DNA of 64,000 bases. Source: Trichocoleus desertorum ATA4-8-CV12. Its GTDB lineage: Bacteria > Cyanobacteriota > Cyanobacteriia > FACHB-46. This document shows positions 56,721 to 59,811 of the stretch, piece after piece. The stretch is taken from positions 1 through 64,000 of the forward strand of contig JAHHIL010000018.1 in NCBI GenBank assembly GCA_019358975.1, read 5' to 3'. Numbering within the stretch: the first letter of the stretch is position 1; each line of letters starts with the position of its first letter. Both the position numbers and the translations under genes were made by a program. A model generated the notes under the pieces. That model was not told the origin of the DNA. It was given only the letters and a program-made list of their open reading frames with translations, and searched no databases.

Positions 56721-58079
56721 ATGACCACCTCTTCTCGCCGCTATCACATCACTACTTTTGGTTGTCAGATGAATAAGGCTGACTCCGAGCGCATGGCTGG
56801 CATCTTAGAAGACATGGGCTTTCAGTGGTCAGAGGACCCGAATGAGGCCAGTCTCATTCTCTATAACACCTGCACGATTCGAGATAACGCAGAACAAAAA
56901 GTTTATTCCTACTTAGGTCGGCAAGCTCGCAGGAAACATGAGCAGCCTGACTTGACCTTAGTGGTAGCGGGTTGTGTGGCTCAGCAAGAAGGCGAATCCC
57001 TGTTACGGCGGGTGCCAGAACTGGATCTAGTAATGGGACCCCAGCATGCCAACCGCTTACAAGATCTCCTAGAGCAAGTCTTCAGTGGCAATCAGGTGGT
57101 AGCGACAGAAGCTGTCCATATTTTTGAGGACATTACTAAGCCCCGACGCGACAGTAAAGTGACTGCTTGGGTGAATGTAATCTATGGCTGCAACGAACGC
57201 TGCACTTACTGTGTAGTTCCTGGAGTCCGAGGCATTGAACAGTCTCGTACCCCCGAAGCAATCCGAGCTGAAATTGAGGAACTAGGGCGGCAAGGATACA
57301 AAGAAATTACGCTGTTGGGTCAAAACATTGATGCTTACGGGCGCGATCTGCCTGGGGCCACTCCCGAAGGTCGGCATCAACATACCCTCACCGATCTCCT
57401 CTACTATGTGCATGATGTTCCTAGCATTGAGCGGATTCGCTTTGCCACGAGCCATCCCCGCTACTTTACGGAGCGCTTAATCAAGGCTTGTGCCGAGCTG
57501 CCAAAAGTTTGTGAGCACTTCCACATCCCCTTCCAGTCTGGAGATAATGAAGTTCTCAAGGCCATGTCTCGCGGCTACACCCAAGAAAAATACCGTCGCA
57601 TCATCGACACGATTCGCAGCTATATGCCCGACGCCTCGATTAGTGCCGATGCGATCGTGGCCTTTCCCGGTGAGACCGAAGCGCAATTTGAGAATACCCT
57701 GAAGCTGGTCGATGAGATTGGCTTTGACTTACTCAACACAGCCGCTTACTCGCCACGCCCTGGCACTCCTGCGGCCATTTGGGACAACCAACTCAGCGAG
57801 GAAGTCAAGAGCGATCGCCTGCAACGCCTTAATCATCTAGTCAACACCAAAGCCGCCGAGCGATCGCAGCGCTACCTAGGCCGCATCGAAGAAGTCTTGG
57901 TAGAAGATCAAAATGGCAAAGATCCCACGCAAGTCATGGGTCGCACCCGTGGCAACCGTCTCACCTTCTTCCCTGGTGACATCAACACGCTCAAAGGCCA
58001 GGTTGTTCAAGTCAAAATCACTGAAGTGCGAGCTTTCAGCCTGACGGGTCAACCTGTCGTGCCCGCTGTTTGCGCTTAG
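56721..58079 (+). CDS. miaB: tRNA-2-methylthio-N6-dimethylallyladenosine synthase
   Basis: MiaB adds a methylthio group to i6A37 of tRNAs. The 452-residue radical-SAM enzyme has the auxiliary-cluster cysteines Cys15, Cys51 and Cys85 and the SAM-cluster motif CNERCTYC (Cys157, 161, 164). The UPF0004 domain (about 6-120), the radical-SAM TIM barrel (about 145-370) and a C-terminal TRAM domain (about 380-445) are all present. The start ATG at 56721 gives [18 protein letters not shown]. Its stop lies 15 bases from the first hairpin of the RNA-like element. Confidence 0.97.
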
Positions 58080-58080
58080 C

Positions 58081-58126
58081 TAGCGACGGAAGCCCCGCGC
58101 TGTACTTGAAAAGTTAGCGTCGGGAT
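58081..58126 (+). other. IS200/IS605-like end hairpin, copy 1
   Basis: Directly after miaB, GACGGAAGCCCCGCGCTGTA is followed by a loop and then TTAGCGTCGGG. The pairing is CCCGCGCT with AGCGTCGGG (58094-58124). The same GGAAGCCC / CGCTGTA / AGCGTCGGG pattern is repeated at 58571-58608. Confidence 0.6.
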
Positions 58127-58231
58127 AGGGAGTCCGGCGATGAGGAGTCTCACCCCGAACGATGCCACAGGCGGGTGGAGTAGGTGAGCGACGAATCGCC
58201 AATCTATCGAGCAAATAAAAGGCTTGAAGTC

Positions 58232-58260
58232 TTTTCATGGCAAGGATTTCAGGGTATAAT
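58232..58260 (+). promoter_or_regulatory. sigma70-type promoter upstream of the structured RNA
   Basis: A TATAAT box at 58255-58260 and a TTTTCA -35 at 58232-58237 are separated by 17 bases. Predicted transcription starts at about 58267 and reads to the right, not into a protein gene but into the hairpin-rich segment. Confidence 0.6.
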
Positions 58261-58266
58261 ACAGAT

Positions 58267-58616
58267 GGTTTAACAACCCACCTGACCGCATCGAACAGAC
58301 AGGCAAACTTCAAAGTAGAGGTTCGACTCTTGCCGCAGGCAGATCGGTAGCTCAGGGAAGCTGTTTTCTCCAACTGGTCGCCATTGCGTAAATCCAAGAG
58401 AAACAAAAGCAAAAGTTATCAACCTGCGGAAGGCGGGTTGCTGCCTGGGTGGTAGGCAACTATCACGGGAGTCAGTGGGATGTGCTGTTAATACAGGCAT
58501 GACCAAAACCTCCAGAAGCTGCGTCAGACCAGTACTTTGCTTGCAAGGTGGAGGCAGCGGCTGTTGAAACAGGAAGCCCGTGCTGTATTGCTTGCAATCA
58601 GCGTCGGGTACTTCAC
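58267..58616 (+). ncRNA. candidate stand-alone HEARO/OMEGA-like guide RNA
   Basis: About 350 nt of non-coding sequence is rich in hairpins. These include AGAG-GTTCGA-CTCT (58317-58330), CCTGC-GGAAG-GCGGG (near 58422-58436), GTTGCTGCCT with AGGCAAC just after it, CCTCCA paired with TGGAGG, and the final CCCG-GCTG...CAGC-CGGG hairpin (58577-58608). The order GTTCGACT, CCGCAGGCA, TCGG, AAGCTGT agrees, from memory, with the scaffold of IscB omega RNAs (HEARO). The final hairpin followed by TACTTCAC resembles IS200/IS605 ends. In IscB RNAs the guide is the 5' end, here about 58267-58282. No iscB, isrB or tnpB frame is present. It could instead be a relic MITE. Confidence 0.55.
58571..58616 (+). 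other. IS200/IS605-like end hairpin, copy 2
   Basis: AGGAAGCCCGTGCTGTATTG, then a loop, then CAGCGTCGGGTACTTCAC. The inner stem ATTGC/GCAAT extends the outer CCCG...CGGG stem. This is the 3' end of the RNA-like element and the better-preserved copy of the hairpin after miaB. Confidence 0.6.
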
Positions 58617-58743
58617 TGTCGTTGATTATCAAGCTAGCGATCGCTCATCCAGCAATCCCAAAAAATTGTTCGCAATTGCTTCTGGCAAGCCGAGGCGGGT
58701 GTGATACGCTAGCTGCGATAGATTGTGCCGGAAGGATTCAGTC

Positions 58744-59811
58744 ATGACGAAGCTGCGGGTGGGGTTGCTGTTTGGAGGTTGCTCAGGGGAGCATGAAGTT
58801 TCGATTCGTTCGGCCCGCGCGATCGCTAACGCTTTAAAGACAGAGCCAAATCCTAGCAAGTACAAAGTGTCGCCTTTTTACATCCAAAAAGATGGCTGTT
58901 GGCAAGCTCCAGAAGTCGCTCAGTCAGTTCTAGACTCTGGTGTGCCCTTATCTTCTGAGGAAGCATCCTCAACTGCTACTCGCGCTCACCTTTGGCAATT
59001 TCCACCCCTAGCTGCCGAAATTGATGTTTGGTTTCCCATCCTCCACGGGCCTAATGGGGAAGATGGTACGATTCAGGGTTTGTTGCAGTTGATGCAAGTA
59101 CCCTATGTTGGGTCAGGGGTGCTGGCTTCCTCGGTAGGAATGGACAAGATTGCCATGAAGAGCGCTTTTGCTCAGGCAGGATTGGCGCAAGTTAAATATA
59201 TGACAGTCAATCGTTCGCAGGTTTGGTCGAATCCTTGTGTTTACCCGAAACTATGCGACGAAATTGAAGCAACATTAGGTTATCCCTGTTTTGTTAAGCC
59301 TGCTAACCTAGGTTCCTCAGTCGGTATTGCTAAGGTGCGATCGCGGGCTCAACTCGAAGCAGCGTTAGACAGTGCCGCTAGTTACGATCGCCGCTTGATT
59401 GTAGAAGCTGGAGTCGTGGCTAGAGAAGTGGAATGTGCGGTTTTAGGTAACGATCAAGCGCAAGCTTCTATCGTAGGGGAGATCACTTACACTAGTGACT
59501 TCTACGACTATGAAACGAAATACACCGAAGGGCGAGCCGATTTGCTCATTCCTGCTCCCCTACCGGAGACGATCGCTGATCAAGTGCAAGCAATGGCCTT
59601 ACAAGCATTTGCAGCAGTTGATGCAGCGGGATTAGCGCGAGTTGACTTCTTCTATGTGGAGTCTACGGGGGAAGTGTTGATTAACGAAATCAATACATTA
59701 CCTGGCTTTACTGCTACTAGCATGTATCCTCAATTGTGGGCAGCTAGTGGGGTTAACTTCCCGACCCTAGTCGATCAACTGATTCAGTTCGCCTTGGAGC
59801 GACATTCTTAA
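58744..59811 (+). CDS. ddl: D-alanine--D-alanine ligase
   Basis: Ddl joins two D-Ala for peptidoglycan precursor synthesis. The protein has 355 residues from the ATG at 58744, which has GGAAGGA about eight bases upstream. It has the ATP-grasp organisation with [17 protein letters not shown] at the start, [17 protein letters not shown]-type motif ([12 protein letters not shown], about 100), [17 protein letters not shown] (about 185-200) and [17 protein letters not shown] (about 315-331). It carries the Tyr-type active-site context SMYPQLW seen in D-Ala-D-Ala enzymes. Confidence 0.96.

Follow-up and report, generated by a model that had tools for sequence, protein, structure and literature searches.

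Cas12 is regarded as a descendant of TnpB, whose guide RNA normally comes from the nuclease's own locus; TldR proteins are TnpB-like RNA-guided repressors. Stand-alone HEARO RNAs have reportedly been described as well, by Weinberg in 2009 and Altae-Tran in 2021. For ISDra2, the reRNA is derived from the right end (RE) of the element, takes its last ~16 nt from the flanking DNA and has the TnpA target as its TAM (PMC8612924). In TnpB systems, the RE marks the end of the scaffold (PMC10278001), and for TnpB in cis a mode of retention has been proposed in which the empty site is cut and then repaired (PMC8612924).

The window considered here, a stretch of 64,000 nt (on contig C18 of the 6.06-Mb source genome G000, Trichocoleus desertorum ATA4-8-CV12), harbors an element that, judging from its sequence, is likely to be a satellite transposon of the IS200/IS605 type, one that supplies a TnpB in trans with an omega RNA of its own. 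The first-pass annotation of this locus was partly supported, as it had picked up a real feature and assigned it to the wrong type of guide RNA. The features are as follows:

58076–58079, plus strand: TTAG, presumed TnpA target tetranucleotide and presumed TAM of the RNA, identical in 11/11 copies and preceded by random bases
58080–58616, plus strand: complete non-autonomous IS200/IS605-type element
58080–58142, plus strand: left end (LE), with an imperfect hairpin
58080–58238, minus strand: probably the broken remains of a ribbon-helix-helix (RHH) repressor gene in divergent orientation
58232–58260, plus strand: putative RNA promoter, TTTTCA-17-TATAAT
58264–58448, plus strand: conserved 5' RNA domain, model R1
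58449–58508, plus strand: variable linker between the RNA domains, defined by the homolog alignment and diverging more than its neighbours among the 11 copies
58509–58578, plus strand: TnpB-type omega-RNA scaffold by homology, model R2 (GUMAGACC, a variable hairpin and GGAGGC...GAAACAGGAAGCC)
58572–58616, plus strand: RE, terminal hairpin plus TACTTCAC
58617–58632, plus strand: predicted 16-nt guide TGTCGTTGATTATCAA, host DNA outside the element

Ends, copies and insertion sites

The element is a repeat of 537 bp. The source genome contains 11 near-full-length copies, which are 92–97% identical and beyond whose two ends conservation drops sharply. Its borders read TTAG/CTAGC...TTCAC/, with TTAG in front and the TTCAC end present in 11/11 copies, while the sequences outside are unrelated among copies; there is no target duplication, and TTAG is not repeated on the right side. 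Of the extent originally given (58080–58622), the start holds and the true end is 58616. The first-pass annotation had also suggested looking for borders and empty sites in relatives, and both were obtained, as exact ends in the 11 copies and as a near-exact empty site in the congener G001, where miaB and ddl are joined without the element and a small indel lies beside the junction. In the window, the insertion is located immediately 3' of the miaB stop codon with ddl downstream, and all 11 copies are intergenic or nearly so. In a second congener (L243, G002:C1:1114400-1116700), which lacks the element at this site, the miaB–ddl interval is occupied by a gene for a protein of ~270 aa. One copy in another genome (L061, G086:C75) resides within an apparent phytanoyl-CoA dioxygenase-like gene; the flanks of this copy fail to rejoin in frame.

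Both ends carry subterminal hairpins (DNA fold z = -1.89 for the LE and -3.25 for the RE). The left 47–63 bp and the right ~67 bp are found again as the termini of elements that code for a TnpB of 403 aa (C29, as well as C62 and C2 with close copies), which share the layout of the RE; the LE is 89% identical to that of C29 over 47 bp and 81% identical over 57–63 bp to those at the contig ends C20 and C35, where a similar LE follows TTAG and adjoins a Y1 transposase gene fragment. The IS200/IS605-type ends recognized from the outset are thus common to tnpB and tnpA elements of this genome, and TTAG stands 5' of the LE in both. Neither tnpA nor tnpB is present within or near the window element, whereas the genome contains 12 Y1 TnpA matches and three intact tnpB genes with the same end type (C29, C62, C2). 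Since the element lacks both genes and has ends in common with elements that carry them, we classify it as non-autonomous and of the IS200/IS605 type, depending on TnpA from elsewhere. Subterminal hairpins, a fixed short target without duplication, no transposase gene inside and TnpA in the genome are also the hallmarks of a MITE or PATE, a point to which we return below.

Several other origins were considered and rejected. In most homologs each of the six reading frames contains interruptions, and none is kept, which speaks against a protein-coding element; a plasmid or phage origin was discarded as the only match was one of 48 bp to the RE in an Oscillatoria plasmid, with none in phages or viral contigs; and an IStron (intron-like) reading was dropped because the promoter is internal to the element and the 11 copies are intergenic or nearly so. 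DNA matches in G184 and G218 (L099, L100) proved to be chance similarity within a coding gene.

The 3' scaffold and the predicted guide

By homology to tnpB genes, the 3' part of the RNA, which includes the right end (58509–58616), represents an omega-RNA scaffold of the TnpB type. Model R2, trained on nuclease-less elements only, matches genuine tnpB genes at their 3' ends, both in the source genome (L049 with E 1.4e-10; L048, L050 and L051 with E 5–7e-6) and in G086, G190, G251, G260, G262, G282 and G293; the matches overlap the C-terminal tnpB codons and adjoin the right end. Relatives beside TnpB genes, which the first-pass annotation had proposed to look for, were thereby found in this genome and in others. 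A contig end truncates C53, the best-scoring tnpB partner in the genome; the intact genes C29, C62 and C2 fit R2 only moderately. The conserved GUAAGACC corresponds to the stretch coding for V-R-P of the TnpB tail (e.g., L255), and elements ending in TGTCAA have the scaffold form seen in tnpB genes of the same end (L267 versus L158–L162). For a Cas12/TnpB-type pseudoknot between the RE tail and an upstream GAA, a conserved GGGAA could pair with UUC of TACTTCAC, but lineages ending in GTCAC lack a matching change; by eye, covariation support for this pairing was not seen.

Further elements of this kind were encountered. A second, divergent stand-alone R1+R2 element is present in the same genome (L198, 2589–2852; G000:C5:9588-9851), which has the other end type, GGATGTCAA, and a scaffold of the form GCAGTTGCTATGAAGCAGAAA. 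Multicopy stand-alone TnpB-type scaffolds of the form CCCTTGGAGGGAATGTAAGACC...GGTAGTTCAC, without a tnpB ORF and with little or no R1 signal, occur in G293 and G251 (L200, L204, L206, L251, L252) and probably represent additional satellite families.

Precisely at the border 58616/58617, conservation among the 11 copies drops from complete to random, the adjoining host DNA being different each time. A search of 58050–58800 yielded no terminator-like site. Taken together with the rules known for TnpB, these observations lead us to predict, by analogy with the ISDra2 reRNA, that the guide is encoded by the right flank from 58617 onward (58617–58632), with TTAG as the TAM. At the sequence level, the locus thus has a scaffold homologous to a tnpB 3' end plus RE and a flank that varies per copy, as a reRNA does; the absence of tnpB in cis, both from the element and from its vicinity, sets it apart from a standard reRNA locus.

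The RNA had originally been interpreted as an IscB/IsrB (HEARO) omega RNA or a relic thereof, with a 5' guide at 58267–58282. In favor of such a reading, the RNA is structured, stands alone and is associated with IS200/IS605-type ends, and HEARO RNAs are frequent within the class (RF02033 in 25 of 194 genomes, the source genome not among them). The Rfam HEARO model, however, gave no match to the window copy and nine homologs even at E ≤ 10, and true HEARO loci of the class share no real sequence similarity with the element; the sequence blocks originally taken for HEARO are not HEARO. A search for IscB (RRXRR domain) returned nothing in the source genome and was positive in six control genomes; of the nucleases that the first-pass annotation had wanted sought in the genome, tnpB is represented by three intact genes and IscB by none. 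Finally, the stretch 58267–58282 is conserved between copies and genera and hence cannot be a per-copy guide, and the 3' end is of the TnpB type. We therefore rejected the HEARO/IscB assignment, to which we attach next to no probability. As an aside, HEARO copy numbers are very high in G177, G135 and G128 (at least 11 each), and some of these copies possibly have no adjoining IscB gene.

The promoter region and the 5' RNA domain

The TATAAT box at 58255–58260, spaced by 17 nt from TTTTCA (58232–58237), had been noted at first inspection and is confirmed as part of the sole sigma-70-like site in 58050–58800 (shuffled sequences yield 0.4 on average). The surrounding 44 bp show the highest pairwise divergence within the element (0.12), yet TATAAT is unchanged in 11/11 copies. 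Among 49 distinct upstream sequences of diverse relatives, 28 contain a match of at least 5/6 to TATAAT, as compared with ~15% expected from shuffles, and in 27 of the 49 the box is found at the same preferred distance. The invariant box and the lack of tnpB are in line with the original view of a stand-alone, promoter-driven, guide-RNA-like element devoid of a nuclease gene.

Just upstream of this promoter, at least 12 related elements encode a divergently oriented RHH-type protein of 48–66 aa with weak Pfam matches to DUF6364, RHH_1 and DUF6290. The window copy probably holds a broken remnant of such a gene, as suggested by its position; the remnant frame, starting with MKRLQAFYLLDRLAI, had no match in a Pfam search. 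A palindromic, operator-like sequence is located between the RHH ORF and the guide-RNA promoter in L093, L095, L103, L145, L195, L197, L202 and L233–L236. We infer from this arrangement that the RHH protein may repress the guide RNA. Dosage control of this kind, along with a TnpB-type scaffold bearing an extra domain, would also be conceivable for an RNA that acts as an antagonist or decoy, blocking TnpB or TnpA in trans and thus limiting cutting or mobility instead of guiding. Such a role appears quite unlikely to us, as the end structure is complete, the flank supplies a guide automatically and the scaffold end shows no sign of damage in the 11 copies.

The RNA of ~350 nt had been described as a structured non-coding stretch that ends in a CCCG...CGGG hairpin followed by TACTTCAC. 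This description is borne out, and the fold is backed by covariation across genera. Homologs of the 5' domain were first picked up via DNA similarity and then combined in alignment A1, in which 26 consensus pairs are supported, 18 of them changed on both sides, a result equaled by none of 500 shuffles; the signal was lost when the pairing partners were slid. A search of class genomes with the R1 model revealed a related structure in 34 of 390 cyanobacterial genomes, with E < 1e-10 in roughly half of the genomes, and strong covariation was again evident in 24 further matches, the sequences of which had been aligned to the model. Hosts identified by a short exact pattern comprise Anabaena, Baaleninema, Symploca, Coleofasciculus, Desmonostoc, Calothrix, Nostoc, Tolypothrix, Fischerella, Chlorogloeopsis and others. 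Rfam contains no family matching the 5' domain, and for the window copy and nine homologs nothing relevant appeared at E ≤ 10, group I introns and ribozymes included (low-E miRNA matches were due to GC-rich repeats). On comparative grounds, the 5' domain constitutes a new RNA family, unmatched in Rfam. In one copy (L102, G190:C1:86469-86818), it is split by a palindromic insertion of ~120 bp.

The lack of an Rfam family might be taken to mean that the RNA serves an unrelated process, for instance as a riboregulator or ribozyme merely carried by the element. We regard this as improbable in view of the fact that R1 is followed, at nearly every locus examined, either by an R2 scaffold or by a right end of the IS605 type; left ends differ among the loci, and the IS605-type right end is recurrent. 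None of 51 R1 loci examined had tnpA or tnpB homology within ~1.2 kb, and no counterpart of the 5' domain is known in any tnpB-bearing element.

Divergence among the 11 copies amounts to 0.027 in the 5' domain, 0.020 in the scaffold and 0.018 in the right end, as opposed to 0.06 in the left spacer. This pattern suggests that the RNA parts are under selection, with the proviso that related copies are not independent. The idea of a relic is thus unlikely for an element present in 11 copies, whose RNA diverges less than the rest and is conserved across many cyanobacterial genera. The same observations bear on the possibility that the element is a plain MITE or PATE, the leftover of a dead tnpB element in which the ends and a tnpB 3' stretch were kept for TnpA and the RNA is functionless. 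This would explain why the scaffold overlaps tnpB coding sequence of other loci, and transposase-free IS605 derivatives are indeed known (PATEs, PMC3119063). Still, the 5' domain does not consist of tnpB sequence, and compensatory changes have preserved its fold in different genera. The promoter box is unaltered in all copies, divergence is lower in the RNA than in the spacer, and TnpA would have no need of a 185-nt internal RNA fold. All of this makes the plain MITE or PATE unlikely, albeit worth keeping in mind.

A satellite model and its relation to known systems

For the preferred reading, a satellite supplying an omega RNA to TnpB in trans, we propose the following sequence of events, whose transcription, TnpB binding, cutting and benefit steps are conjectural. 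TnpA from another element would mobilize the satellite and insert it 3' of TTAG. Its own promoter would then give rise to an RNA composed of the new structured 5' domain and the TnpB-type scaffold, and the transcript would pass through the right end into host DNA, the last ~16 nt constituting a guide that matches the right flank. TnpB encoded elsewhere in the genome may bind this RNA and cleave the donor site left empty by excision (TTAG plus right flank); with the sister copy as template, repair would then bring the element back. Points that weigh against this reading are the truncation of C53, the only moderate fit of the intact tnpB genes to R2 and the lack of a known counterpart of the 5' domain in tnpB-bearing elements. 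There is in our estimate an even chance that we are dealing with a long-lived cyanobacterial satellite lineage whose regulated guide-RNA gene, often accompanied by an RHH gene and an operator-like palindrome, exploits the TnpB of other transposons in trans for its own retention or spread.

If true, guide and nuclease would have been separated before CRISPR, and transposon satellites would parasitize an RNA-guided nuclease. The 11 natural guides in the genome with their predicted targets would make the retention hypothesis testable with tnpB left unedited, and the new 5' domain may serve as a promoter-driven omega-RNA format.

As in TnpB omega RNA/reRNA (ISDra2; PMC8612924, PMC10097598), the scaffold overlaps tnpB 3'-end sequence, the hairpin RE forms the 3' end, the guide is expected in the right flank, and the TTAG target/TAM is comparable to TTGAT of ISDra2. 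Unlike a TnpB reRNA locus, the element is devoid of tnpB, has its own promoter and an extra conserved 5' domain of ~185 nt, and would act in trans. It resembles PATEs in being multicopy, without transposase, equipped with near-terminal palindromes, free of target duplications and moved in trans, yet PATEs consist of terminal sequences or are core-deleted derivatives (PMC3119063), whereas this element has a conserved promoter and a structured RNA. In common with HEARO (RF02033)/IscB omega RNA, its RNA is tied to IS200/IS605-type ends; its sequence is unrelated, though, IscB is absent from the genome and the guide is expected at the opposite end. What it shares with TldR is presumably the co-option of a TnpB-type guide RNA for another use; there, the TldR protein gene adjoins the guide RNA, whereas the element has no protein gene nearby. 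In the open-access literature we found no stand-alone TnpB omega RNA, although priority elsewhere is possible. Both IS605 derivatives lacking a transposase (PATEs, PMC3119063) and HEARO RNAs that stand alone are already known; what may cautiously be called new, as far as sequence comparison with Rfam and open-access papers goes, is a conserved, promoter-driven TnpB-type guide RNA that occurs without tnpB and is joined to the R1 domain.
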